From positions 1 through 35,268 of IMG/VR virus record IMGVR_UViG_3300018049_000068: a stretch of 35,268 nt of DNA, one strand, 5' to 3'. The notes beneath the pieces were generated by a model that did not search any database, was not told the DNA's origin, and saw only the letters and a program-made list of their open reading frames with translations. The stretch is from a virus. Both the position numbers and the translations under genes were made by a program. Below, one piece after another: positions 7,618 through 34,181 of this stretch (positions are counted from its first letter, which is position 1; each line of letters opens with the position of its first letter).

Positions 7618-8733
7618 TTATGAGTGGAAAATAGGTAGAATACCTAGGTTTAGGGCATCCATTTTACGATCCCATGAAGCACTTGCTGCATAGCTTGCGT
7701 TTGTTGCAAATGCGTTTGTAGCACCTGCCCAATCGTAGCCCATTGGGTGCATGATGAAGCCGTAACGATACCAAATATTTGTAGAACCGCCACCTGTGTA
7801 TGCTGCTGCGTCACGATCTACTTCTACTGGTGTAGGAGTCGCAACTGGAGCAAAAGTTACAGAACCTGGCTTAACAACGAAAGTACATTTTGTTGATTCT
7901 GCATTTAAGTCGCCTGATGCCGCTGTGTGCATTTGGTTTGCACGAGTCATTACTAGACGGAACTTACCACCAAAGATTGTGCTAAAGTTCAAGTTACCAT
8001 CTGTAACTGTTGTATCGTCAACCAAGTTGGCTGCACGCATTTCTGCCATGATTTCTGGTGAAGTTACAAGATACATGTAGTCTGGTTCGTAATCTTTGAA
8101 GCCCATGCCAATAGCTTGGAATAGACGCTCACCACGAGCAGCACCAATTGCTGTTGAGTCAAACAATTTACGAGCAGTTGAAGAGCCAGCTGCCGCTGTA
8201 CCAAATACACCACCTGCGTTAATGTCAACAAAGTTACCTGTTGCTGCAGAATCTGCATCTGTATCGTAGCCTACTAGACCACCGTTACCTGATCCACCTG
8301 CGTCACCTAGTGCTACTTCGTATGCTGCAACACCTTTTAGAAGGTTCATAAGAGCAGTACCTTCGTCATCGCCACGTACTTGTGCAAAGTCACGAGCAAT
8401 TTTTGCTAGACCGTCTTGCTTTGAAACAACTTCTTGCATGTTAACTTGTTGCGCACCAAATGTACGAACTGTTTTAACATAGTTAGCAATATCTGTTGTG
8501 ATGTCTGTATATGTACCATCTGTTGCAGATGACAAAGACGCAACATTGATATTTGCTGCTAGTGGTTTGTAGTAACGGAACTGACCGATGAAAGATTCAC
8601 CATCAGCATTGATGTCGTCACGCTGCCCAACAATACCTGTTGAGTTTAGCTTTTTCTCAGTAGTGTATGCTTCGTCTGCGTATGCAGAAATAGCGAGAGC
8701 TACATTTTGAAAATCTGTGTTTGTAATAGCCAT
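7618..8733 (-). CDS. Major capsid protein
   Basis: The 371-residue protein follows the scaffold gene and precedes the connector genes, the canonical major capsid position. It fits an HK97-fold coat protein: a helical N-terminus (FQNVALAISAYADEAYTTE), a loop region rich in Gly/Asp, a helix with RKLFDSTAIGAARGERLFQA, then DYMYLVTSPEIMAEMRAANL and a strand-rich C-terminus ending in WDRKMDALNLGILPIFHS. The AFATNASYAASASWDRK stretch is typical of phage coat proteins processed with a separate scaffold. There is no N-terminal protease or delta domain; the scaffold is a separate gene. The ribosome site is AAGGATT before ATGGC. Confidence 0.88.
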   Translation of the reverse strand: MAITNTDFQNVALAISAYADEAYTTEKKLNSTGIVGQRDDINADGESFIGQFRYYKPLAANINVASLSSATDGTYTDITTDIANYVKTVRTFGAQQVNMQEVVSKQDGLAKIARDFAQVRGDDEGTALMNLLKGVAAYEVALGDAGGSGNGGLVGYDTDADSAATGNFVDINAGGVFGTAAAGSSTARKLFDSTAIGAARGERLFQAIGMGFKDYEPDYMYLVTSPEIMAEMRAANLVDDTTVTDGNLNFSTIFGGKFRLVMTRANQMHTAASGDLNAESTKCTFVVKPGSVTFAPVATPTPVEVDRDAAAYTGGGSTNIWYRYGFIMHPMGYDWAGATNAFATNASYAASASWDRKMDALNLGILPIFHS

Positions 8734-8757
8734 AATTATTAATCCTTATTTAAACTA

Positions 8758-9444
8758 TTAGTATGTATAATTACCTAATTGACCTTTTGAGGCCATTGCT
8801 AAAACCTCCTCCTGTGTCATTTGAGATAGCGATTTCTTTTCAGTAACATTTGGCGTTCCTGCCGAAGTTGTTGTTCCTGCACCAGAATTTGCTTTAACAC
8901 GGAAAAGGAAAGAATTGTCTTCATTCTTTGAATAAGCGAGAATAAAGTCTTGAATAGTAGTGCCTGACTTATGAACCCAAGTACCGTTTTCATTTTGAAC
9001 GAGTTGCTCAACAATATCACGGTAGGCCATTTGACGACTACGCTCATTACGGAAGTCTAAACCACCTAGTTGCGAATTAACTACATTATCACGATTTAAC
9101 TTCGTGTTCTCTTCTTCGTAGACTTTTAGTTTTGCATTCGCTTCTGCAAGCTTCATTTCTAAAGCTTCCTGCAGCTTTCCTTCTTCTTCTAGCCGCTGAA
9201 TCTGTTCTTGTTTTTGTTGTTGTTCAATTTCAGCTGCCTTCTTAAGCGCTTCATCACGCTCTTTAGCCATGCGATCCATGTTAGACTTCATTTTAGTAAG
9301 CCGTTCTTGGACCTCACGTTCAATCGGATCTACCTCGTCATTGCTTGAAGCTTCAACGGTTTCCTCTTGAACTTCTTGTTCAGTAGTCTCATTGGATTCT
9401 ACTTCATTTACTGTTTCTTCTTCGATTTTATTTTCTTCACTCAT
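8758..9444 (-). CDS. Capsid scaffold protein
   Basis: I place the start at the ATG at 9442-9444 (228 residues), because AAAGGA lies just upstream; an in-frame TTG at 9457-9459 would put the ribosome site inside the gene. The sequence is what a scaffold looks like: an acidic, disordered N-terminus dense in Glu (about 1-45), a long coiled coil (about 50-125, rich in EAL, KEE and QQKQEQ), and a less charged C-terminal part ending LSQMTQEEVLAMASKGQLG, the likely capsid-binding end. It precedes the major capsid gene. It would drive procapsid assembly and leave before maturation. Confidence 0.87.
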   Translation of the reverse strand: MSEENKIEEETVNEVESNETTEQEVQEETVEASSNDEVDPIEREVQERLTKMKSNMDRMAKERDEALKKAAEIEQQQKQEQIQRLEEEGKLQEALEMKLAEANAKLKVYEEENTKLNRDNVVNSQLGGLDFRNERSRQMAYRDIVEQLVQNENGTWVHKSGTTIQDFILAYSKNEDNSFLFRVKANSGAGTTTSAGTPNVTEKKSLSQMTQEEVLAMASKGQLGNYTY

Positions 9445-9456
9445 AATTTTTCCTTT

Positions 9457-9469
9457 CAAGCACAGCTTG
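9457..9469 (-). repeat. Small hairpin, 5-bp stem and 3-base loop, before the scaffold gene
   Basis: The minus strand reads CAAGC TGT GCTTG, a perfect 5-bp stem with a 3-base loop, ending against the scaffold ribosome site. The same stem and loop size, and the same TGT loop, occur 30 bases upstream (9487-9499). The geometry is that of phage N4 virion RNA polymerase promoters, but it could equally tune scaffold translation. About 34 such perfect 13-mers are expected by chance in 35 kb, so one alone means little. Confidence 0.4.
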
Positions 9470-9486
9470 AGTTGTATATAATATTT

Positions 9487-9499
9487 GTGTCACAGACAC
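9487..9499 (-). repeat. Second 5-bp stem, 3-base loop hairpin after the RNA polymerase fusion gene
   Basis: The minus strand reads GTGTC TGT GACAC. It lies in the 90-base gap between the MuF-RNA polymerase gene and the scaffold gene, with ATATTATATACAA following, which also resembles a bacterial -10 region. The gap is the only break between portal and capsid genes long enough for a promoter, so a promoter for the scaffold-capsid transcript here is plausible but unproven. Confidence 0.4.
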
Positions 9500-9534
9500 G
9501 GTTATTTAAAAGTCCTATAGGCTATTACAAATAA

Positions 9535-12500
9535 CTACGGACCGATGCCATACCAGTCTTTATTGCCTGATAGTGGTGATAATATATCAGATCTAGTGAT
9601 CTTATTTTTTGGATTTATTAGACCTTGGGCTATTGCCTCTTGTCTAAGTTCATTATACGATTTTCTAGAAAGACCTTGTTTGCGCATTTCTTTTAAAGTC
9701 TTTTCAATCGTATTACCTTCAAGAGCATTTGCATAAATGGTTCTTAAAGCATCTTTTGCACGATTAGCTTCACTAATATTAGTAAAGAAGGCATCGTGAA
9801 TTGTTCCAGTTCCGACTTTGTTTTTACGACCCCACTCGTGGAATTGTCTAACAATAACAGCGTCATTACTGTGATTTCCATTAACACCTAATCCAATCCT
9901 AGCATCTACTAAAGAGCCTTTTCCTAAAAGCTTTCCGTCTTCTGCTGAATCTTCATAAATATTAGAAATTCTTCTACCAGTTACAGGGTCTCGAAACTCA
10001 ATTCTTTCCTGTATTTTTGGTCTATACCTTTGAGTCATAATTTTTCCATCAAAAGTTACCCAAGGTATATCTACGCTTTGAGTTTCTTCAACATATCTAA
10101 CAGCTACCTTTTTCCAGTAATTAATAAAATTATCAGTTACAGGCGCTCTTTGGGACATATTTTTGCTCATAATACGAGATATTTCTGAGAATTCTTTTGG
10201 TCCAATTACTCCTTGTCTAGCATTGTACATTTTGTCTACAAAATCACCAACATCAGGGTGAATTTGTTGTGCATCTTTTAATAGTGTTCTACCAACAGGT
10301 TGTCCCTTGTTTACTATCTCTACTAGTTCATCTCTAAAAGATTTTAATTCTGCTGCTGTAGCTGTAGCCCCAGTTCTTTCAGCAATTTTAATTTTACCAT
10401 CAACTAGTCTTAAATTAGAGTTTAAGCTTTCTTTTGTTATAGTAAGAAAACCTTTTCCCTCAAGAACAGAGACAAGCCCTCTAGAAACATTAGCAGTTTT
10501 AGTTGCTGCACCAGCACCATAAAAACCCACCATGTTTTGATATTTAGCAGCCTTGGCTAAATCTTCCCAAGTTAAGTTAGCGTTCCTTAAAGCAGGTATT
10601 GCTAAAAACTCTGGATCATTAACAGTATCAATTGCTACCAAGTCATAAAGACGGTTTTTCTGAGTAGTTGCAAGAACATTAGAAGACTCTGCTAAAGACC
10701 TATCTCCTGTAGACAATGCAATAATTTGAGCACCAGAAGAACTAGCATCATTTTCAATCATTAGTCGAGTTTGATAAGTTGTAAGTGGATTTCCTTGATC
10801 AATATGTCTTTGTATTCTAGCATACTCTAAGGACATTCTTCCAAGTTTAGCCACTTCAGCACCTTCAAGTCCTCTCATTAAGGGGTGTTCAAGAAACTGT
10901 CTAATCCGTCTATCTCTTTGAGTGGTAGACATCATTATTTGGCCTAGCTCTAAAATATTACTTTCGTTTCTATTAAAAATAGCTCTACGACCTGCTTGAG
11001 TAAGTGCTTCTGTCCCTGGACCTAGTAAAGCACCAACCTGTATTTTTAGTTCATCTAAAGCTTCTTCTGTCATGTTAACTGCATAGCCAGAGTTTAAAAA
11101 TGGACGTCCTAGTTCACCAGTAGTAGGTGTTAGGTATCCTCTGTGATAAACTCGACCTCGACTATCTAAAAACGCTTGAGTTTTAAAGTTTTTACCTCTT
11201 TGAGCATGATATTTTGCAGTGGACATAAGGCCGTAACCTTGTTCGCCCCTGTTTAAAATTTCATGACGAAACTCATTAATACCGTCATAGTATTTAGTGT
11301 TTCCCCTTGGATCTCTAAATCTAGCAACATCATCCATGAATGAAAAGAACTCACTATCAACGCTATACTCCACATCCATAACATGATTTAACATTTTTGC
11401 CATATCACGATCAATTTGTTTTTCATCGTAATCAGGAAATTTATCTCTAGAAATTAAAGGTATTCCTGTATCATTACCTCTGGCATCTACATAAGTCTTT
11501 TTACCTGCTTTAACATACAGTTGATCTCTTGGTGTAGTAACACCTAGTCGCCTTGAAATTGTTACTCTACGCTCTGCTTCTTGAAGTTTTAAAAGTTCTT
11601 TGTTAACAACAACAACTTCTCTAGAAATTGTATCGCCCCAACCCCCTGAAGCACGACCTGTTTCTAAATCAATAACCCCTCTTCGGGTTTTACCTCTAAA
11701 CTGTACTTTAATATAACCTTGCTGTACAAAGAAGTCTAGTATTTTAGAACCTTCTTTATGATAGTCTTTTAAAGTATGTTTAGTAAAAGGAATTACATTT
11801 TCAAAATCTTTAGAAAACTGTTTACCAATATTAATAGCTAAAGTATCATAATCAGTAGATTGTCCTGATGCGATTAATTTAGCAGATTTAGTAATATTGT
11901 CTATCGCCTTGTCATCAAAGAATTTTGATGTAGGTTTTTTAGATGCAATTAAAAACTCTCGATCAAGTATTTGACGAAATACTTCTCTCTTTTTTGCAAA
12001 AGTTTTAGTAATCCAAGAGTCTGATGGACCTCTGTCAAGAAATTCATCAAGCTTATTCTTAGCAAGATAAGCTCTATAAGCTATATCAAAAGAAGGAACA
12101 ACTCTGAGTTTCTTTATAAGATCTTCCCTAGAAGGATAACTGTCTATAAACTTTCTAAAGTAAACTCGTAAAGGCGCTCTTCCTGTTGCATATAGCCGAT
12201 TAGCTAATTTTACACCTTCTTTTCTGCGCCAAGCATCGATAAATCTTTGATCTTTTAACTGATTCCTTTGTATATCATCAAAAGTATAGTACTTCCCCAT
12301 TATTTGCACTTGAGGCGTATCTTTCGATAGATAAGAAACAAACATTTCTGATCGTTGTCTTGATCTTGTGTCTAAAAGCCTAGATACGTTTTGAACTGAA
12401 AAGCGGTTTTCAGCTCTTACAACTGAAGCAAAATCTGTCCACGGAGTTTTATCTTTTGCATAACGCTCAAAAACAACTCTTAAGTTTTCAATAACTACTG

Positions 12501-14307
12501 TTTGTTGATTTACTGAAATTCTGTCATCTAAACTAGCAGCAACAGACTCAATAAAATCTTTCTGATCATTATTAAGAAGTTTAGAGTTTCTCATAAAATC
12601 AATACGCTCTTGATACAAATTGAAGTCAGGGTCATAAAGATTATTGTTTTTAATTTCGCCAGTTAAAGGATCAGCACTAAAGTTTCTTTCATCAAACTCA
12701 TTACCCACTCTTCGTCTAGAGGCGGTTTTACCTGCAAGACTTGTTCCTTTAAAATCTGTTAAAGAAATAGTCTTACTAAAATCATCAGAGTCTAATAAAA
12801 ATAATTGTCTTAAATCATTTTTATGCTTTGGATTTCTTAATAGCATTGCGGGTGTTGTTGCTTCAACTCTTATATCTTGCTCTCGTATTTTTTGGCGAGG
12901 CTTATATATGGAAGTTGCGTCTGATGCTCTTTTTCTTAAGGCTTGAATACTAAGAGCAGTTCCCTTTGGAGTAACAAACTCTCTTGCTTCTAACGCACCA
13001 CCCTTAAAAAGCTTAGCTCTATCTTCGTCACCAAGCATTTTTACCATTATAGAAAAGTCTTGTTTTCTCAACCATTCTGTAAAAGATTGTATTCCTGGAG
13101 AAAGACCATTTAAAAAGTTTGCAGGAAACTTTTCTAGTTCTTTCTTTTTAATATTTGTTCTAGAAGGGAAAACTTTTCCTCTATAATCAATCTTTCTTAA
13201 AGTTTTATCTTGAAAAATTAAAGATTTACTATCAAAGACATGATCGTTGCCCATTAAAAAGGCATTCTTTACAGATTTGTCTGCATTTGTAATTTGTTTA
13301 TAGATAAATGCCTCACGGTCTCTCTGAAACTGTTCTGTTTCTCCACCATATTTTTTGCGTAAACTAGTTTTTTCTTTAAATGAAAGATCACCCTTTCTAA
13401 GTATAAAGTTATTGGTTTTAGCCCATTTTATAACTTCAGGGTCTTCATAAAATTCATGATAAACTATTTTAGGCTTAAAGGCTTCCATGCGTTTTTCAAC
13501 TTCACGGACATTTTTTCTAGTATGAGATTCTCCAAAAATTGTAACATTTTCAGTCCCAACTTGTTGCATCTCTTCTTTACTTTTAATAACAGGTACTAGA
13601 GAACTACGACAATTCCAATGTAAAGGTGGTACAAACCGTTTATCATCTACTTCATAAACTTTTCCATTATGATAAGAACAAATAGGGCTTGTACGAGAGT
13701 CAAGTATTGCAGTAAACATAAAGCCTTTTATAATCTCTTTATTTTCTTCTGCAACTTTTCTTAAGGCTGACGTCTGAGTAGCTGTAATAGAAGTCCTAGT
13801 TAAAGCTCTTGCTTGATTTTCAGTTAACTTAGTAGTTTTTAAAACATCAGCAATAATTTCTTTAGGTGGTCTTCCGTTTGCAAGTCCTGCCTTTACTTTG
13901 GATTGAATTCTAACAAGTTCTCCTGCAGATATATTTCTAACATTTGTAGAAAGATCTTTAGCACCACGCATAGTAGGGCCAGTAATTTCTGCAAGAAGCT
14001 CTTTTGTTTTTGGGCGATTTACTTTATAGAATTTATTTACTTCTTTAAAAAGATTGTCACTATGAAAATCTAATTGAGAAGTTGAAAATTCTTTTAAAGT
14101 GTTTCTTTTATGAGAAAGAAATTCAGTTCCAAACCTAGAAACTTCTTTAGAAACATCTGCTCTGATATTCTTTTGCAGTAAATCTCTTAAGTTTTTTCTA
14201 TGACGCTTAATAATACGTCTATTTTGGATTTGAACTCCTTCTTCATAAAGTCTTACATCTGCCATATGATCTACAATACGATCATAAATTTTGTCGTTAA
14301 TGTTCAT
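9535..14307 (-). CDS. MuF minor capsid protein fused to a TIKI-like domain and a single-subunit RNA polymerase
   Basis: The 1590-residue protein lies between portal and scaffold, the MuF site, with GGAG six bases before the ATG. Residues 1-241 form a phage head morphogenesis (MuF) domain with ENQARALTRTSITATQTSAL and a late zinc-site-like set C210, H213, H230, C233. Residues about 252-378 resemble TraB/TIKI proteins: GESH (259-262), E285, GNDH (353-356). Residues about 480-1590 form a T7/N4-type RNA polymerase: D1048-SRGR with R1052, motif A D1187-ASSSGAQ (T7 D537), motif B K1255 to Y1263-G1264 (T7 K631, Y639), TFDGKIMTQRY near 1418, and motif C H1504-D1505 (T7 H811-D812). All catalytic residues are kept; the Arg four before K1255 is Ala. 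The likely role is a polymerase packaged in the head and injected with DNA to transcribe early genes; this is inference by analogy with N4. The frame is continuous, so the fusion is not a boundary artefact. Confidence 0.92.
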   Translation of the reverse strand: MNINDKIYDRIVDHMADVRLYEEGVQIQNRRIIKRHRKNLRDLLQKNIRADVSKEVSRFGTEFLSHKRNTLKEFSTSQLDFHSDNLFKEVNKFYKVNRPKTKELLAEITGPTMRGAKDLSTNVRNISAGELVRIQSKVKAGLANGRPPKEIIADVLKTTKLTENQARALTRTSITATQTSALRKVAEENKEIIKGFMFTAILDSRTSPICSYHNGKVYEVDDKRFVPPLHWNCRSSLVPVIKSKEEMQQVGTENVTIFGESHTRKNVREVEKRMEAFKPKIVYHEFYEDPEVIKWAKTNNFILRKGDLSFKEKTSLRKKYGGETEQFQRDREAFIYKQITNADKSVKNAFLMGNDHVFDSKSLIFQDKTLRKIDYRGKVFPSRTNIKKKELEKFPANFLNGLSPGIQSFTEWLRKQDFSIMVKMLGDEDRAKLFKGGALEAREFVTPKGTALSIQALRKRASDATSIYKPRQKIREQDIRVEATTPAMLLRNPKHKNDLRQLFLLDSDDFSKTISLTDFKGTSLAGKTASRRRVGNEFDERNFSADPLTGEIKNNNLYDPDFNLYQERIDFMRNSKLLNNDQKDFIESVAASLDDRISVNQQTVVIENLRVVFERYAKDKTPWTDFASVVRAENRFSVQNVSRLLDTRSRQRSEMFVSYLSKDTPQVQIMGKYYTFDDIQRNQLKDQRFIDAWRRKEGVKLANRLYATGRAPLRVYFRKFIDSYPSREDLIKKLRVVPSFDIAYRAYLAKNKLDEFLDRGPSDSWITKTFAKKREVFRQILDREFLIASKKPTSKFFDDKAIDNITKSAKLIASGQSTDYDTLAINIGKQFSKDFENVIPFTKHTLKDYHKEGSKILDFFVQQGYIKVQFRGKTRRGVIDLETGRASGGWGDTISREVVVVNKELLKLQEAERRVTISRRLGVTTPRDQLYVKAGKKTYVDARGNDTGIPLISRDKFPDYDEKQIDRDMAKMLNHVMDVEYSVDSEFFSFMDDVARFRDPRGNTKYYDGINEFRHEILNRGEQGYGLMSTAKYHAQRGKNFKTQAFLDSRGRVYHRGYLTPTTGELGRPFLNSGYAVNMTEEALDELKIQVGALLGPGTEALTQAGRRAIFNRNESNILELGQIMMSTTQRDRRIRQFLEHPLMRGLEGAEVAKLGRMSLEYARIQRHIDQGNPLTTYQTRLMIENDASSSGAQIIALSTGDRSLAESSNVLATTQKNRLYDLVAIDTVNDPEFLAIPALRNANLTWEDLAKAAKYQNMVGFYGAGAATKTANVSRGLVSVLEGKGFLTITKESLNSNLRLVDGKIKIAERTGATATAAELKSFRDELVEIVNKGQPVGRTLLKDAQQIHPDVGDFVDKMYNARQGVIGPKEFSEISRIMSKNMSQRAPVTDNFINYWKKVAVRYVEETQSVDIPWVTFDGKIMTQRYRPKIQERIEFRDPVTGRRISNIYEDSAEDGKLLGKGSLVDARIGLGVNGNHSNDAVIVRQFHEWGRKNKVGTGTIHDAFFTNISEANRAKDALRTIYANALEGNTIEKTLKEMRKQGLSRKSYNELRQEAIAQGLINPKNKITRSDILSPLSGNKDWYGIGP

Positions 14308-14332: not shown

Positions 14333-15901
14333 TTATTCTTCAATTTCTACTTGATTATCTGAAGGTGTTTGTACAAGAGGATCTGTTTGAATTTCTTCAA
14401 CAGCCAATTCATCTTGATAATCTGCAGGAAGGAAATCATTGTATTTAGCAATATTAACAAATGTTGTTCTAGAAATAATGCCGCTTTGATACCACTCGGA
14501 AACAAGTCTCATTGCGCCTTCTCCACCAACCATAGGTGAGAAGTCATTAGACATTTGGAAATTTATATCGCTAGCCGTATAATCTGTTTCATATTTCCAG
14601 TTCAGCATAAATGCAATTACTTCACGCATAGTTCCTGATACTTTAGCATTAAGAGTACCTAACTGTGCGGTTTGTGAAGCATTACGAATTTCCAAAGCTA
14701 CACCTGACGCAGCAAATTCTGGAGAAAGCATTTTAATGCCCATTTGCCCCATTTGAACGATAGTAGTCTCAATAGAACGATCCATATCTGCAAGAGCTGA
14801 AGTAGGTGTTTCTAGTACACTAATTGATTCATCCTTACGAACTCGTAGCCAAGTACCCAGCCCTGCATCCACAATCTCTTGGAATTCTTCGTCTGTCATG
14901 TCAGACTGAACAACAGGAGTATAAGTGGCTGCACCATATAGTAAGTGATTACGGCGAGATACCTTATTGTAAAGTGAAATCTCACGATCAATTAATGGCA
15001 TAAGAACAGGTTCTACTGGATCTATCTGCCCATTCAAAGGCCATGCAGGAATACGCATTAAGCGTTCACCAAACATAGTTGGATAAACTGTATTAACTTT
15101 GACAAATTGAGTTTGATGTCCAAACTCTACATATTCTTGTTTTGCATCACCGTTAAGAACTTTAATTTCGTTATTACTGTCTGGATGTTCGTAATAATCA
15201 AGAACTAAACGACCAGTTTCATCAAGATAATGATCACAAACAGTATCAATATAATTTGGATGCCAAGGATTATCGTTAGTATACTTTTTAGTAAGATAAC
15301 GTGTTACCATACGTGTTAGCGTCTTTTGACGAGTAACAGGGTGTGTATCTGTTTGAATATTGATTACGTTTTCAGCTTCAAGAATAACAGGGTATGGTTT
15401 AATTGTATCACGCTCTTCGGGTGTCATTGCATCATACTGCTCAACACTTAACTCAGGATAATCAACATAAACCCAAGCACGAGATGTTTGAAGCTCTTCC
15501 CAAAGTGCAGCATCTAAAAAGTTAAACAAAGAACGACCATCTAGTGTAAAGTTGTCTTTAATCCAAGTGAAGGCATCTTCAGGAAGTTCTTCTGGTAAAA
15601 CCAGTTGAGAATCCTTACGTAGCAAAGAGCTAATAAGAACTTTACAATACTGTGCAGTTAAACCTGGAAGTTCTGCTTCTGAACGATAAAAATCATATTG
15701 ACGCTGTGTCATACTAGGTGAGAAAGGAATAAGTACATTAGAATAATCATGCATTAGATATTCATCATGTGCCTTAACATTTTCTTGTCCTTGTAGTACA
15801 GCACGAGACTTTTTCCACATAGGTTTTAAAGACTGATAACTATCACTAGGATCAGCTACCGACTTTTTAATATTCTTTGTTGGTTTCGTTAATTGAGCCA
15901 T
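14333..15901 (-). CDS. Portal protein (DUF4055 type)
   Basis: The 522-residue protein fits the portal family labelled DUF4055. Typical segments are LPGLTAQYCKVLISSLLRK (about 78-96), a middle WxYVDYPELS region, PLIDREISLYNKVSRRNHLL followed by GAATYTPVVQSDM, and AASGVALEIRNASQTAQLGT with a long helix that would line the crown. A dodecamer of this protein forms the channel for DNA entry and exit and nucleates head assembly. It overlaps the small upstream gene as TAATG at 15901 and is followed after 25 bases by the MuF-polymerase fusion, whose MuF domain should bind next to it. Confidence 0.88.
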   Translation of the reverse strand: MAQLTKPTKNIKKSVADPSDSYQSLKPMWKKSRAVLQGQENVKAHDEYLMHDYSNVLIPFSPSMTQRQYDFYRSEAELPGLTAQYCKVLISSLLRKDSQLVLPEELPEDAFTWIKDNFTLDGRSLFNFLDAALWEELQTSRAWVYVDYPELSVEQYDAMTPEERDTIKPYPVILEAENVINIQTDTHPVTRQKTLTRMVTRYLTKKYTNDNPWHPNYIDTVCDHYLDETGRLVLDYYEHPDSNNEIKVLNGDAKQEYVEFGHQTQFVKVNTVYPTMFGERLMRIPAWPLNGQIDPVEPVLMPLIDREISLYNKVSRRNHLLYGAATYTPVVQSDMTDEEFQEIVDAGLGTWLRVRKDESISVLETPTSALADMDRSIETTIVQMGQMGIKMLSPEFAASGVALEIRNASQTAQLGTLNAKVSGTMREVIAFMLNWKYETDYTASDINFQMSNDFSPMVGGEGAMRLVSEWYQSGIISRTTFVNIAKYNDFLPADYQDELAVEEIQTDPLVQTPSDNQVEIEE

Positions 15902-16401: not shown

Positions 16402-16419
16402 TTTATTCTTAAACGTCAG
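16402..16419 (-). repeat. 18-bp direct repeat, copy 2 in transcription order
   Basis: The minus strand reads CTGACGTTTAAGAATAAA, identical to 16494-16511. It lies after the hairpin and before the A/T-rich stretch that leads to the portal-side genes, a promoter-like position. AATAC precedes it and CTAGGGG follows. Confidence 0.8.
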
Positions 16420-16430
16420 GTATTAAGTAA

Positions 16431-16493: not shown

Positions 16494-16511
16494 TTTATTC
16501 TTAAACGTCAG
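16494..16511 (-). repeat. 18-bp direct repeat, copy 1 in transcription order
   Basis: Identical to 16402-16419 and placed just four bases after the endolysin stop. Identity continues in part on one side (AATAG versus AATAC before the core). Two copies flanking the hairpins are best explained as paired binding or promoter sites, or as the trace of a small duplication. Confidence 0.8.
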
Positions 16512-16515
16512 CTAT

Positions 16516-28214: not shown

Positions 28215-30677
28215 TTATAGACCTCCAAAGTCTAGCTGAAGGTTAGAACCAGAAATGGTACCTACGTTTGTCATATCATTATCTTGAGCATCTAGTGTGC
28301 CACCTAGTTGGGGCGTTGTATCGCTAACAATATCAGAAATACCTGCTGAAATCGAAGCAAATACACTACCTGTATAAAACTTTAGTGTATTGGCTACACT
28401 ATCATACCACAAATCTCCTGGAGAAGGACTACTAGGAGCTGTTGCTGAAATAACATATTGTGTAGCATAACGATTAATGTCGCTCATATAAGGCGCAATT
28501 GTATTTACACTAACGATATTTGTCCCAACGGTATTAACATCTGTTATAGAAGCTGCAACGGTAGTAACGTCACTAATATCTGTAGCCACCGCAGTTACAT
28601 CTGCAATAGCGTCTCCAACAACAGTAATTGAGCTTCCGCTACCTGTTGTAACAGTATCAGTAATTGATCCTAGATCTTCTGAATAAACCAGATCTCCTGC
28701 TACAATATTAATAGCAGTCTGATCTGCTGCAGAAGGTGCTGTTGCTTGCCATACACTATTAGTAGTATTATAAGCTCTTAGCTCATTGTTAGTTGTATTC
28801 CACCACAGATCACCACTATCCAAAGAAGTTGTAGGTGCTGATGCTGAAATACGATACTTATTAGCAAAGCTATTAACGTCACCAATGTTAGTTGCAACAG
28901 TATTAATATTAGTAGAATTTCCTGCAACTGAAGTTACGTCTGATGAAATCCCTGCTACTGTAGTAACATTGCTTGATATTGTTGAAACAGTATTTACATC
29001 TGTTGAAACACCTGCTACTGTAGAAATGTCTGCTTCATTAGCAGAGACACTAGTTACATCAGCGGAAATCCCCGAAACAATAGAAACATCAGAACTAATT
29101 CCTGAAACAGTTGTTACATCAGAAGAAATACCTGAAACGGTATTAATAGCTGTTTGATCACTGCTTGTAGGTGTTGTACGCAACCAAGAAGTTGTACCTA
29201 AGTCGTACACCTTCATAATGTTATTAGTTGTATCAAAGTACAAGGCACCGTCAATAAGAGCGTCACCGTCATTATCAAGAGTAGGATCAGAAGCTTTTGC
29301 GCCTAAGTAACGATCATCAAAGCTATCATAACTAGCTGCTGCTGCTGCCGCTGAAGCCGCTGCATTACTTTCTGAGGCAGCTGCATTAGTTTCCGAAGTA
29401 CTTGCATTAGATTCTGAAGTAGCCGCAGCAGACTCACTTGCAGCTGCGTTTGATTCAGAACTTGCTGCCGCTGTTTCGGAAGATGCTGCCGCAGTAGCCG
29501 AAGCTGCCGCCGCCGTTGCACTAGAAGCTGCCGCTGAAGCACTGTTAGAAGCACTTGTTGAAGGTGCAACCCAAGCAGAACCACTAAAGACCTTTAGTTC
29601 ATTAGTTGTTGTATTGTAATAGAACGTACCAGTAACTAAAGCATTACCATCATTATCAACTACTGGATCTGAACTCTTATTACCTAAGTAACGATCGTCA
29701 AAGTTATCATAAATAGTTTGTACTTGAGACAAAGCTGTAGCTGCATTACTTTCACTAGTTGCAGCATTAGTCGCCGAAGTAGCAGCGTTAGTTGCACTTG
29801 TAGACGCACTTGATTGGGAGTTTGCTGCGTTAGCTTCTGATACAGCCGCTGCAGAAGCAGAAGCCGAGGCATTACCTTCAGAGGTTGCTGCATCGTTAGC
29901 ATAAGATAGTGCATTGCCTTCTGCTGTTGAGGCGTTACTTTCGGAAGTCGCCGCATTTGACTCAGAAGTAGCTGCGTTAGTTGCACTTGTAGCCGCCGCT
30001 GTAGCACTATTTGCGGCTGCTGTTTCAGAAGTAGCTGCGTTTAACTCAGAAGCAGCTGCATTAGTCTCAGAAGTCGAAGCGTTAGCTGCAGAAGTAGCTG
30101 CATTTGTTTCTGATGTAGCTGCATTAGTCTCAGAAGTCGATGCATTTGTTTCTGAAGTGGCTGATGCAGTTTGGGATGCAAGAGCATTAGCTTCAGAGGT
30201 TGCCGCATTAGTCTCAGAGGTAGCCGCATTGGTTTCTGAAGTAGATGCATTAGTCTCTGCTAGTTCTGCTGCTGTCTGAGCTGTTTCTGCCGCTGTCTGA
30301 GCCGCTTGTGCTTCTGATACTGGATATTCCCAGGCTGTGCCATTGTATACACCAAGGCTACTACTTGTAGTATCAAAGTAAATAGCTCCTGTTAAAAGGG
30401 CATCACCGTCATTGTCTACTGTAGGTGCTGAAGTTTTATGGCCTAAGTAACGATCATCAAAACTATCATAAAGAGCTTCTGTAGCTGCAATATAAGTTGA
30501 ACCGCCAACATTAGTTGTTGAAACAACATTCCCCGCAGAATTTGAAATAACAACAATAAGATCACCATCTTCATTCATTGTTACACTAGTAACAGAATCA
30601 CCTTTGCTGCCTTGCCCACCTGTTCGGGCTAGACTTGCTTGGTATTGCTGTTGATTAATCGTAAGATCATATGCCAT
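28215..30677 (-). CDS. Alanine/serine-repeat tail fibre
   Basis: The 820-residue protein opens with a short head (to about 65). Three modules YDSFDDRYLG...DNDGDALLTG...YFDTT...W (starting at about 70, 325 and 452) alternate with long Ala/Ser/Thr repeats such as TSETNAATSE, a low-complexity coiled shaft known from phage fibres. The second half has DVTTVSGIS-type repeats and two related modules (about 605 and 735, ISASAPTT...GDLWWNTT). It ends DTTPQLGGTLDAQDNDM and FGGL. The next gene starts 2 bases later. It probably connects the adaptor-like protein at 30679 with the distal fibre. Confidence 0.87.
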   Translation of the reverse strand: MAYDLTINQQQYQASLARTGGQGSKGDSVTSVTMNEDGDLIVVISNSAGNVVSTTNVGGSTYIAATEALYDSFDDRYLGHKTSAPTVDNDGDALLTGAIYFDTTSSSLGVYNGTAWEYPVSEAQAAQTAAETAQTAAELAETNASTSETNAATSETNAATSEANALASQTASATSETNASTSETNAATSETNAATSAANASTSETNAAASELNAATSETAAANSATAAATSATNAATSESNAATSESNASTAEGNALSYANDAATSEGNASASASAAAVSEANAANSQSSASTSATNAATSATNAATSESNAATALSQVQTIYDNFDDRYLGNKSSDPVVDNDGNALVTGTFYYNTTTNELKVFSGSAWVAPSTSASNSASAAASSATAAAASATAAASSETAAASSESNAAASESAAATSESNASTSETNAAASESNAAASAAAAAASYDSFDDRYLGAKASDPTLDNDGDALIDGALYFDTTNNIMKVYDLGTTSWLRTTPTSSDQTAINTVSGISSDVTTVSGISSDVSIVSGISADVTSVSANEADISTVAGVSTDVNTVSTISSNVTTVAGISSDVTSVAGNSTNINTVATNIGDVNSFANKYRISASAPTTSLDSGDLWWNTTNNELRAYNTTNSVWQATAPSAADQTAINIVAGDLVYSEDLGSITDTVTTGSGSSITVVGDAIADVTAVATDISDVTTVAASITDVNTVGTNIVSVNTIAPYMSDINRYATQYVISATAPSSPSPGDLWYDSVANTLKFYTGSVFASISAGISDIVSDTTPQLGGTLDAQDNDMTNVGTISGSNLQLDFGGL

Positions 30678-31244: not shown

Positions 31245-31622
31245 TTAGCGAATTCCGCCACCTGTACGGCCTGTACCACGGCGTGAAGTACGCCCCATTG
31301 CAGTACGAGCACGAGCTATTGCTGATGAAACTGTATTTGTTGCACGGTTCTTGCCTTTGCGTGCCTGTGCTGAAGCTCTACGAGCTTTTGCCAAAGCTGC
31401 TCGGCGAGCAGAAGTAAACTGAAATTTAACTTTACCCACTGCACGTTTAGCTTTCATTAGCTTTGCGCCACGAGCTTTCTTACGTGCCATACGAGCACGC
31501 ATTCCTGCAACACCTTCAGTTCCTACTGAGGTTCTGTTACGAGCTGCTGATTTTGCTTTACCATAGGCACGACCAATTGCGTTGCCAATGCGGGACTGTG
31601 ACCCCATTTTACGTTTTGCCAT
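31245..31622 (-). CDS. Extremely basic histone-like protein, 125 residues
   Basis: 37 of 125 residues are Lys or Arg and only one is acidic, with no Cys. The composition (Ala, Gly, Arg, Lys) recalls protamine- or histone-H1-like proteins. A motif FTSARRAALAKARRASAQAR (about 70-89) resembles FTPARKRALAKARQ at the C-terminus of the neighbouring 266-residue protein, so the two may share a DNA-binding unit. Position just after the terminase and before a terminator suggests a late virion or DNA-packaging role. No specific family is recognised. Confidence 0.75.
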   Translation of the reverse strand: MAKRKMGSQSRIGNAIGRAYGKAKSAARNRTSVGTEGVAGMRARMARKKARGAKLMKAKRAVGKVKFQFTSARRAALAKARRASAQARKGKNRATNTVSSAIARARTAMGRTSRRGTGRTGGGIR

Positions 31623-31648
31623 TTGTTTATTCCTTTATTAATAAATAT

Positions 31649-32449
31649 TTAACGATTTTGTTTGCGCATTTGTCTTGCTTTAGCAAGTGCTCTTTTACGA
31701 GCTGGTGTAAATACGTATTTTTTACGCATACCTGATGCTGCTATAAACTTACCACTACGAAGCTGACCAGTTCTTTGAATACCAAGACCTGTCTTCTTAG
31801 CAATAGTTCCAAAAGTTTTTGCTCTGTTAGAAGCCTTAACTCGCTTAGATGCATTTTGTGCATTAATACGTTTACGCATTTGTGCAGTAGTTTCTTTGCC
31901 GTATTTTTTACGAGCAATACGAGTCTTTACTGCACCAACTACACGACCCGCTGTAGCACCAAATAAACCTTTTCTAGTACGAGACTTTGTGCCTGTACGA
32001 GCCTTGACATTTCTTTTAATGCCTTTAGGTGCGCCAGCCGCCATACCTGCTAGAGTTGCATACCCTAAGGTCATTTGATTTGCAACATTGCTTAGAGAAA
32101 GGCTGCCACGTCTACCAGATACTGTTTTACGTAAAACACCTTTTACTTTTGCTCTATCACGGTAATCACTAACATCAAATCCTGCTTTCTTTAAAGTTTT
32201 GTCAATAGTACCTGATGTTATTCCTTTACCTACGTTATAAAACAAGCTAGTGTTTACTTTAGCCTGATTGTAACGTCTAAGAAGTTTGCTTTTCAGCCGA
32301 TCTATAGAGTCGCCCTGCTTATAAGCACGTTTGCCACCACGACCGCCTTTGTAGCGAGAGGCAATTTCTTGCTTTTGAACACTTTTAAGATATTTATTAA
32401 TAGAATTAACTGTGGTTGGAGAAATCTTCTTTAATGGTTTGTCTGCCAT
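31649..32449 (-). CDS. Basic protein, 266 residues, likely DNA-binding virion protein
   Basis: About 70 of 266 residues are Lys/Arg against about 9 acidic. Residues 30-60 hold RYKGGRGGKRAYKQGDSIDR, the middle (about 118-145) is a neutral, Gly/Ala-rich segment (LGYATLAGMAAGAPKG) that could sit in a membrane or bury on folding, and the C-terminal half is strongly basic, ending in YVFTPARKRALAKARQMRKQ. It lies between the terminase and the 125-residue basic gene. A role in condensing or guiding packaged DNA is inferred; no family is known to me. Confidence 0.7.
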   Translation of the reverse strand: MADKPLKKISPTTVNSINKYLKSVQKQEIASRYKGGRGGKRAYKQGDSIDRLKSKLLRRYNQAKVNTSLFYNVGKGITSGTIDKTLKKAGFDVSDYRDRAKVKGVLRKTVSGRRGSLSLSNVANQMTLGYATLAGMAAGAPKGIKRNVKARTGTKSRTRKGLFGATAGRVVGAVKTRIARKKYGKETTAQMRKRINAQNASKRVKASNRAKTFGTIAKKTGLGIQRTGQLRSGKFIAASGMRKKYVFTPARKRALAKARQMRKQNR

Positions 32450-32475
32450 TATTTTATTCCTTCTTTGCTGTGTTA

Positions 32476-33801
32476 TTAGAAATTAAAGCCACGCTTAACG
32501 ACTTTAGTTCCTGCTCTGATTGGATATAGATATTCTACTGCATAGCGCAGTGCATCTGTCCAATGTTCAATACCTTCTTTTTTATCAATCGTGGCACTAT
32601 CTGGGTTAGACTCTACCCACTGTGTACGCTCTAGAGACTTAATGGTATTAACACACTTAGGATGAACTAGCATGTCAATATCACCATTGGCGTTCTTAAA
32701 CTTTTTATTCACAGCTGCTACTGAGTCTACAATCGGTGGAGCTTTTGTATGTGCTCTGGTAAATATACCGTGTGTCTCTAGGATCCTGAAATCAGTAACA
32801 CCGACAGCAGCTGAAGTTTTTCTCGCCCTCCCAGCAGGATCAGGATAAGAAATGATACGATGATCATTATACTTTTCCTTAAGCGCTCTTGCTAGGGTTT
32901 CAGTATCGGGGTGTCCTTGCATCTCATCCAGTATTTGGATTTGATTTCCCCGAATAGCAAAGATAACTGAGGCCATGATTCCAACGTTAAAGTCAATAGC
33001 GACATGAACGTCTTCACCTTCCTCAAAATTTTGAAGTGTATTGTCAATATGCTCTTTACGATTAAACGTATAAAACACATTATTACCTGAATCTTCAAAG
33101 CTTGCAGTATATTCTCTAGCAAACTTTAAGGGGTCCAGTGTTAGCTTTACCCTTTCAATCTCCTCTTCATCTAAGAAAGGAGAATCCTTGTATGTATATG
33201 TATAACTTTTCCAGTCATCATCATAATCTTGTCTGTTATACATCTCATAGAAATAATCATAACCACTGGGAGTACTAATAATAAGTGCTCGACCAGAGTT
33301 AGCGTTAAACTTTTTAGCGTTCATAGGAGACCAACGAGTAGCAACACAAGGTTGTATAATTGATTCCCATGACTCTTTAAGGTTCATACCAGCACCCTTC
33401 CAAGAAGTAACCTCATCGGCTACTATAAAATACTGGCCTGTACCCCGCATACGTTGTGATGCTTCATAAGACCAAAGCTTAAGCTGAACGTTATTTGGAA
33501 ACCAAAATTGTCCTGCTGCTTTAGAAGCCTTATCAGCAAAGTCCTCCATACCCAGTTGCCAAGCTATCAGTGGATAGTAAATATCTACTGCTTGGCTGTA
33601 GGTAGGGGCAATGAGGGCTACGTTCTTATTAGGAACATCCTCATCTAAATTCATTAATTCTTGTACTGCTATAATAGCCGCTGTAGCTGCTAAGTAAGAC
33701 TTGCCAAAGCCTCGACTAGCATTAACTACTGCATAACGATTACTCTTATTTACAAATAAATCTCTAATAACTTCTGACTGTTTCTCATGTAACTTTATCA
33801 C
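32476..33801 (-). CDS. terL: Terminase large subunit
   Basis: The 441-residue protein carries both activities of the packaging motor. ATPase: Walker A ASRGFGKS (28-35), Walker B YFIVADEV with D129-E130, coupling motif IISTPSG (174-180). Nuclease of the RNase H fold: D270 in VAIDFNVG, D321 in YPDPAGRARKTSA and D416 in EHWTDALRYAVEYLYP. Length is typical. It overlaps the upstream basic protein by 4 bases (ATGA). A small terminase subunit is not recognisable in the window; the preceding small basic genes are candidates only by position. Confidence 0.95.
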   Translation of the reverse strand: MIKLHEKQSEVIRDLFVNKSNRYAVVNASRGFGKSYLAATAAIIAVQELMNLDEDVPNKNVALIAPTYSQAVDIYYPLIAWQLGMEDFADKASKAAGQFWFPNNVQLKLWSYEASQRMRGTGQYFIVADEVTSWKGAGMNLKESWESIIQPCVATRWSPMNAKKFNANSGRALIISTPSGYDYFYEMYNRQDYDDDWKSYTYTYKDSPFLDEEEIERVKLTLDPLKFAREYTASFEDSGNNVFYTFNRKEHIDNTLQNFEEGEDVHVAIDFNVGIMASVIFAIRGNQIQILDEMQGHPDTETLARALKEKYNDHRIISYPDPAGRARKTSAAVGVTDFRILETHGIFTRAHTKAPPIVDSVAAVNKKFKNANGDIDMLVHPKCVNTIKSLERTQWVESNPDSATIDKKEGIEHWTDALRYAVEYLYPIRAGTKVVKRGFNF

Positions 33802-34181
33802 TTTTTACGACCTAACTTTTTCTTGACCTTTTTGGGCTGTTGGGAAAATTGTTTTCCCTTCTTAAGATCAGCTCGCTTTTTTCTAGTGGTGGAGGCATAC
33901 TGTGCTTTGGTAAGCTTTTCACGATCCCTTTTAGGCAAATAACGCTCACCAGTAGCATCTTTACCAAGAACACTATTCTTACCACTCTTAGTACCCCAGT
34001 CTTGTTTAGTCCATTTAGTCATAGACTTCTGAGCTGCTGTTTTACCACCAGTGTATTTACCGCCCATGTCTTTATAGTATTTAGCGGCTAATTGCATGGC
34101 TCTAGCAGAATGTTTACCACCCATACGAGCTTTAGCTTTAGCCTTTGCTCTTTCCCAAATGCGTGGATTTGCTCTAGCCAT
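33798..34181 (-). CDS. Basic conserved protein (DUF5872-like) next to the terminase
   Basis: The 127 residues resemble, from memory, the uncharacterised family DUF5872 found in phages and giant viruses: KHSARAMQLAAKYYKDMGGK, TKWTKQDWGTK, GERYLPKRDREKLTKAQYA and the basic end RKKRADLKKGKQFSQQPKK. The WTKQDW and RYLP motifs are characteristic. Overlaps with the upstream 46-residue gene (TAATG at 34181) and the terminase (ATGA at 33798-33801) tie it to packaging. It could be DNA-binding; it lacks the helix-turn-helix layout that would mark a small terminase subunit. Confidence 0.75.
   Translation of the reverse strand: MARANPRIWERAKAKAKARMGGKHSARAMQLAAKYYKDMGGKYTGGKTAAQKSMTKWTKQDWGTKSGKNSVLGKDATGERYLPKRDREKLTKAQYASTTRKKRADLKKGKQFSQQPKKVKKKLGRKK

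Follow-up and report, generated by a model that had tools for sequence, protein, structure and literature searches.

The window analysed here, a 35,268-nucleotide stretch of viral DNA (IMG/VR record IMGVR_UViG_3300018049_000068), carries on its minus strand a single gene that joins a MuF capsid protein to a predicted RNA polymerase (RNAP). The frame runs from 14307 to 9535, beginning with ATG and continuing for 1590 codons with zero internal stops, as the initial annotation had described; its strand is now fixed as minus. The proposed placement in the MuF slot between portal and scaffold also holds, with PHROGs matches identifying a portal gene upstream and genes for the scaffold and the major head protein downstream, the same order as in SPP1. 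The features of the locus are as follows.

16499..16514, minus strand: class-I promoter-like site TAGCTGACGTTTAAGA (motif search)
16407..16422, minus strand: class-I promoter-like site TACCTGACGTTTAAGA (motif search)
14333..15901, minus strand: portal protein gene (phrog_145, DUF4055)
9535..14307, minus strand: MuF-RNA polymerase fusion gene, 1590 aa (ORF, Pfam, PHROGs, alignment)
13597..13908, minus strand: MuF (Phage_Mu_F) domain, aa 134-237 (Pfam, alignment, model)
13174..13545, minus strand: alpha/beta insert with GESH motif, aa ~255-378 (alignment, model)
12289..13140, minus strand: conserved region between MuF and polymerase, aa ~390-673 (alignment, model)
9538..12288, minus strand: predicted T7-type single-subunit RNA polymerase domain, aa ~674-1590 (profile, predicted fold)
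11152..11154, minus strand: R1052, aligned with T7 R425 (alignment)
10747..10749, minus strand: D1187, aligned with T7 D537, catalytic Asp (alignment)
10519..10545, minus strand: K1255 to Y1263, aligned with T7 K631 to Y639, fingers motif B (alignment)
9793..9798, minus strand: H1504-D1505, aligned with T7 H811-D812, catalytic Asp (alignment)
8758..9459, minus strand: head scaffolding protein gene (phrog_206)
7618..8733, minus strand: major head protein gene (phrog_247)

The surrounding module is of siphovirus type, with Pfam and PHROGs also identifying tape measure, terminase, PhoH and tail genes, the tape measure gene being truncated by the window edge. The window is a fragment without the region that would hold a second RNAP (see below), and its early region is missing. 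Adjoining the terminase gene, positions 31245-34181 encode three small, highly Lys/Arg-rich proteins (125, 266 and 127 aa), two of which have no convincing family and which are possible DNA-binding head proteins. An 820-aa protein with long ATSETNAATSE-like repeats (28215-30677) is probably a tail fibre, and the 983-aa protein adjoining it combines an Mtd N-terminal domain with an S74 chaperone domain.

The MuF half of the fusion protein

The MuF identity proposed for the N-terminus is borne out by two profile matches: PF04233 at aa 134-237 (E=1.1e-14; 55.6 bits against a curated cut-off of 29.6) and the head morphogenesis family phrog_241 across aa 1-481 (E=9e-45). Within this domain, residues D203, C210, H230 and C233 are invariant in 91 of 91 full-length fusions. 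The preceding segment (aa 1-133) is predicted to be helical. A model of the N-terminal 480 residues has a pLDDT of 86, and a Foldseek search with the predicted N-terminal half returned no meaningful PDB match.

Following the MuF domain, an insert of ~124 residues (aa ~255-378) is present in few close relatives and missing from most. Its GESH motif and its predicted alternation of strands and helices recall EreA/ChaN/TraB-type domains. The region that connects it to the polymerase (aa ~390-670) is conserved across relatives and is additional to the T7-like fold. Neither the insert nor aa 390-670 has a Pfam family.

The polymerase half is predicted to be complete

Profile searches of the C-terminal half matched two RNAP families: PF00940, which passes its curated threshold with E=8e-6 and covers aa 1175-1555, and phrog_414 at aa 1043-1275 (E=2e-20). 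There was also a weak match to the N4-like RNA polymerase PHROG (E=1e-3). Against the PDB, a single-sequence phmmer search returned no match for the fusion protein, and a profile built from the family matched T7 RNAP at E=1e-5.

An AlphaFold2 model of aa 400-1590, computed with 40 relatives, has a pLDDT of 81 and a pTM of 0.70. Foldseek ranked T7 RNAP first for this model (E ~1e-18, probability 1.00), followed by mitochondrial RNAPs. The model has the palm/fingers fold of T7 RNAP, and a finer structural alignment to that enzyme gives a Z score of 28.3 over 518 residues at 3.6 A; the corresponding scores were ~25 for mitochondrial RNAPs, 15.7 for N4 mini-vRNAP and 15.0 for N4 RNAPII. Profile and structure comparison thus return the relationships that the initial annotation had anticipated, MuF through Pfam, and T7 RNAP and N4 vRNAP through the predicted fold. 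The match begins at model residue ~275, equivalent to aa ~674 of the window protein, and covers T7 residues ~30-883, so that the polymerase looks complete and spans aa ~674-1590. Of the span first proposed (aa 480-1590), the T7-type fold stands, but it occupies only the part from aa ~674 onwards. We describe the C-terminus as a predicted complete T7-type single-subunit RNAP with palm, fingers and thumb.

The active site is intact. R1052, D1187, K1255, Y1263 and D1505, singled out from the start as catalytic landmarks, align with T7 R425, D537, K631, Y639 and D812. None of the 91 full-length fusions departs from them, nor from H1504, the counterpart of T7 H811. All six positions also align with SP6, a phiKMV-type enzyme, N4 RNAPII and the second RNAPs that the phages themselves encode. 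N4 vRNAP aligns at the catalytic positions but has F at the position of T7 H811.

The fusion is conserved across aquatic phages

Relatives of the fusion are encoded by more than 500 viral contigs in IMG/VR. In the first set of relatives, the matching part forms one uninterrupted frame in 80 of 80 loci; a second clade comprises 48 loci around EBPR siphovirus 1, and the fusion is kept as a conserved single gene in both clades, which are ~30% identical. The joining of MuF to RNAP is retained in every full-length copy (91), and so are all the residues that were compared, eight in the RNAP part and four in MuF.

Among the phage-record matches listed, the whole fusion is found only in the roseophages DSS3_VP1 and DSS3_PM1 (Naomviridae, Noahvirus; 60% identity) and in EBPR siphovirus 1 (30%), and nearly all other listed phage records match at the MuF end only. 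The cultured DSS3_VP1, a phage of Ruegeria pomeroyi DSS-3 whose fusion protein is QGH74596.1, has the same gene order as the window, plus a second RNAP. Unlike our assignment, existing records of the roseophage orthologs carry only the labels "minor head protein-like protein" (the GenBank label in DSS3_VP1) or "head morphogenesis". A tRNA-Asn gene (L002:19822-19897) sits between the portal and MuF-RNAP genes of DSS3_VP1.

The DSS3_VP1 genome has dU in place of dT (PMC12697855). A link between the fusion and dU-containing DNA was considered and rejected, with a dCTP deaminase found in DSS3_VP1 and in 0 of 14 other fusion records. A prophage origin was likewise rejected: two short peptide patterns, in themselves weak evidence, detected no relative of the fusion in a set of bacterial and archaeal genomes. 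Absence from bacterial genome contigs would fit phages that are lytic.

Introns interrupt the gene at active-site codons

In EBPR siphovirus 1, an interruption divides the fusion gene within the motif of the catalytic Tyr, at NMV|TFYGAG. The gap contains an HNH gene and a match to the group I intron family RF00028 (E=1.5e-8) that scores below the gathering threshold, yet lies exactly at the junction. The fusion genes of two related loci contain group I introns whose scores do exceed the gathering threshold, four in L157 and five in L159. Across these and related loci, the intron positions are at or near SGETF|RPFL, NMV|TFYG, YGVN|MNHSND and IHD|AFF, beside active-site motifs. Homing introns prefer invariant codons, and their presence at active-site codons would therefore constitute independent evidence for a working polymerase gene. 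Intron-broken MuF-RNAP genes of the EBPR-like clade are found at L003:23179-24039 and in L157, L159, L151, L125 and L154. In L159, the first exon (8339-11536) encodes the MuF domain and, beyond it, has weak matches to HINT and LAGLIDADG that suggest an intein.

A second, free-standing polymerase accompanies the fusion

Of 15 long fusion records, 13 also encode a separate T7-type RNAP of ~730 aa, whose gene is in some cases split by introns; the two records without it are 43 and 47 kb in size. In DSS3_VP1, this second enzyme is QGH74624.1 (42436-44634). The second RNAP gene lies in several frames in the records behind L118, L125, L137 and L159, and these frame breaks are probably introns.

In a phylogenetic tree, the MuF-RNAPs form one clade (100/100) that is separate from the second RNAPs and joins N4 RNAPII (98/97), with long branches. 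The best tree also parts MuF-RNAP from N4 vRNAP, a joint clade receiving a p-AU of 0.144 with long branches. The idea that the enzyme evolved independently is thus favored by the fold (Z of 28 to T7 compared with 16 to N4 vRNAP) and by the best tree, but a common clade is not rejected at this p-AU value. An origin of MuF-RNAP independent of N4 vRNAP is likely.

Two classes of promoter-like sites

Two strand-specific classes of promoter-like motif are present in these genomes, and they differ in location. Class I was defined in DSS3_VP1 as TAGG[GT]T[GA]CGTTAAAG / TAGGTGACG[TC]TAAAG, a motif resembling the SP6 promoter. DSS3_VP1 contains 21 such sites (at most two mismatches), 19 of them on the coding strand compared with an expectation of ~2 per strand, and they lie ahead of the PhoH gene and of portal, tail and further genes. 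Both class-I sites of the window (16514-16499 and 16422-16407) lie upstream of the portal and MuF-RNAP genes. The exact DSS3_VP1 motif is absent from the pieces of relatives that were searched, in which a variant resembling TAGCTGACGTTTAAGA is present; freshwater phages have CCCGTT[AG]AATTAACCC in its place. In a total of 1.75 Mb from structural-region loci, every one of the 68 class-I sites has the orientation of the coding strand, with the majority grouped 1.7-2.1 kb ahead of the fusion gene.

Class-II sites precede the block with the second RNAP, lying 3' of the tape measure gene and 5' of the second RNAP gene; in DSS3_VP1 they are located at 35.8 and 36.25 kb. Their core takes the forms CATCTATAATGA and TATCTTATATGA, and the pattern [CT]ATCT(TATATGA or ATAATGA) has 39 matches in 387 kb, compared with 3-7 expected from second-order Markov sequence. 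The motif is found in 12 of the 13 genomes, with G005 having ATCTATAATAGA instead, and a ribosome-binding-site-like sequence usually follows 12-55 nt 3' of the site. The upstream part is conserved as well, marine phages having AAAAAGTGAGAAAA and freshwater phages TGCG together with an A/T tract, giving an extended motif of ~29 bp that reads AAAAAGTGAGAAAA.TA.GCATCTATAATGA in the marine and TGCG.AAAA...GGTATCTTATATGA in the freshwater form. No class-II site occurs in the window, whose early region is missing.

The class-II sites show no sign of a sigma-70 -35 element: at a spacing of 16-18 bp, the best match to TTGACA is 1.4 of 6 positions in marine and 2.7 in freshwater sites, against a background of 2.5. 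Marine sites do include TATAAT, and host RNAP could therefore still read them; freshwater sites read TTATATGA.

At 15 of 25 marine sites, a partly redundant set, a hairpin with a 6-7 bp stem and a 3-4 nt loop starts exactly at the TGA of the class-II motif, compared with a background of 1.6% for stems of at least 6 bp. The stems show compensating changes (GATAC/GTATC and GATATA/TATATC). Hairpin-bearing sites occur in the records behind L006, L010 and L046 and in loci L014, L017, L032 and L036. These hairpins may form at the 5' end of the mRNA or may belong to the promoter itself. If the hairpin marks the RNA 5' end, transcription would start directly after the TATA stretch, as at promoters of single-subunit RNAPs, and not ~7 nt further on as with sigma-70.

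Hairpin promoters of the N4 type (5-7 bp stem and 3-nt loop upstream of the start) did not emerge as a general early signal: hairpins of 6-7 bp are seen downstream of many marine class-II sites, but not regularly elsewhere. Some repeats turned out to lie in the coding sequence of a tail protein, and a repeat in G011 looks like a ribosome-binding site with a start codon.

Discussion

The explanation that best fits these observations as a whole, and in which we have good confidence, is that the fusion gene encodes a MuF-delivered virion RNAP that opens a two-polymerase cascade like those of N4 and P23-45. During assembly, a small number of copies would be brought by their MuF part to the portal-proximal interior of the head, from where the polymerase would enter the cell together with the DNA. 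The packaged MuF-RNAP would then transcribe early genes from the family-wide ~29 bp class-II promoter, and these genes would thus be started without the host enzyme. The early products would include the second, free-standing T7-type RNAP, which in turn would read class-I promoters to express middle and late genes, including those for structural proteins and the next MuF-RNAP.

Indirect support for a virion RNAP serving the early genes comes from the MuF slot by the portal, the second phage RNAP and the early motif without a sigma-70 -35 element. We infer packaging, injection and enzymatic activity of MuF-RNAP, the first two from the MuF fusion and analogous systems. The pairing of class II with MuF-RNAP and of class I with the second RNAP would follow from the location of the sites and from analogy with N4 and P23-45. 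Against virion delivery, a protein of ~180 kDa would have to get through the portal and tail, raising the physical question of how such passage proceeds in a siphovirus.

Alternatively, the RNAP domain could act only after its synthesis in the infected cell, perhaps once cleavage has freed it from MuF, and serve as a late RNAP or in packaging, with host RNAP transcribing the early genes as in T7. Such a role would suit the location of the fusion gene among late structural genes behind class-I sites, and the TATAAT within marine class-II sites. However, a free-standing second RNAP is already available for middle and late genes, the class-II sites lack a -35 element and have the freshwater form TTATATGA, searches with window proteins gave no match to a known head protease family, and the MuF fusion is retained in all full-length copies. 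We consider this alternative unlikely.

T7 RNAP helps to internalise T7 DNA, and an injected polymerase could similarly act mainly to pull the genome in through transcription-coupled entry, or to prime replication, with promoter-specific early transcription a minor function. A portal-proximal location suits DNA entry, and coupling of transcription to DNA entry has been proposed for P23-45 (PMC10770324), but the conserved ~29 bp early motif without a -35 element suggests promoter-specific use, and we regard such a primary role as quite improbable. Finally, the origin of the window from an uncultured contig could point to an assembly artefact, a chance frame or a degenerate polymerase, a reading virtually refuted by the same fusion in cultured DSS3_VP1 and DSS3_PM1, by the existence of more than 500 relatives, by single frames in the 80 independent contigs of the first set, and by catalytic residues that are all invariant.

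If the MuF-delivered polymerase is real, then an entire transcription machine can be accommodated in the MuF slot, and the start of infection would be explained for a large aquatic phage group that includes the Naomviridae. The cultured member DSS3_VP1 makes the virion-RNAP idea directly testable. In addition, the two conserved motif classes offer ready templates on which each polymerase could be assayed, and new pairs of polymerase and promoter might come from them. The second RNAP, the promoter-like motifs, the introns and the cultured relatives all go beyond the initial annotation. On balance, it is probable that a large aquatic siphovirus group packages a MuF-fused T7-type RNAP, uses a ~29-bp early promoter and runs a two-polymerase cascade, built separately from those of N4 and P23-45.

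Comparison with known systems

To our knowledge, virion RNAPs are known from few systems, namely N4-like, crAss-like and jumbo phages and P23-45. We found no report of a MuF-RNAP fusion in the literature searched, and the original DSS3_VP1 paper and the 2025 single-particle genomics paper may mention it.

Coliphage N4 (Schitoviridae) is similar in that its gp50 is a large late protein with a T7-type RNAP domain, whose catalytic residues are shared with MuF-RNAP, and in that a second phage enzyme, N4 RNAPII, is present. In contrast, N4 is a podovirus that uses hairpin promoters, and the predicted fold of MuF-RNAP is nearer to T7 RNAP (Z 28) than to N4 vRNAP (Z 15.7). N4 gp50 lacks a MuF domain and instead has a helical injection region, a metallopeptidase and other domains (PMC5512222). 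Neither this architecture nor an N4-like neighborhood is present at our locus, which instead has a MuF N-terminus and an SPP1-like head module with a tape measure protein.

In the long-tailed Thermus phage P23-45, a structural protein is likewise fused to a virion RNAP (gp96) and a second, non-virion phage RNAP (gp64) is present; the tape-measure-fused gp96 transcribes pre-early genes, including the gene of the second RNAP (PMC10770324). P23-45 has, however, two-barrel RNAPs of the cellular type and uses its tape measure protein as the carrier, whereas both enzymes described here are T7-type and the carrier is MuF. T7 RNAP and other free-standing phage RNAPs share the complete fold and active site, but T7 RNAP has no capsid-protein fusion and is synthesised only in the infected cell, its early gene being transcribed by the host enzyme.

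The closest parallel for the carrier is provided by MuF-effector fusions (ART, PBECR RNase, RelA/SpoT, Nudix and 2H), in which MuF bears an enzyme at its C-terminus that is predicted to enter the virion and then the host cell, the published view of such fusions (PMC5512222, PMC9503650). Among the reported MuF fusions in the literature searched, none was found with an RNAP as cargo, whereas MuF is here joined to a complete one. A virion-delivered RNAP with MuF as a new carrier and a T7-type core would thus be what sets this system apart.
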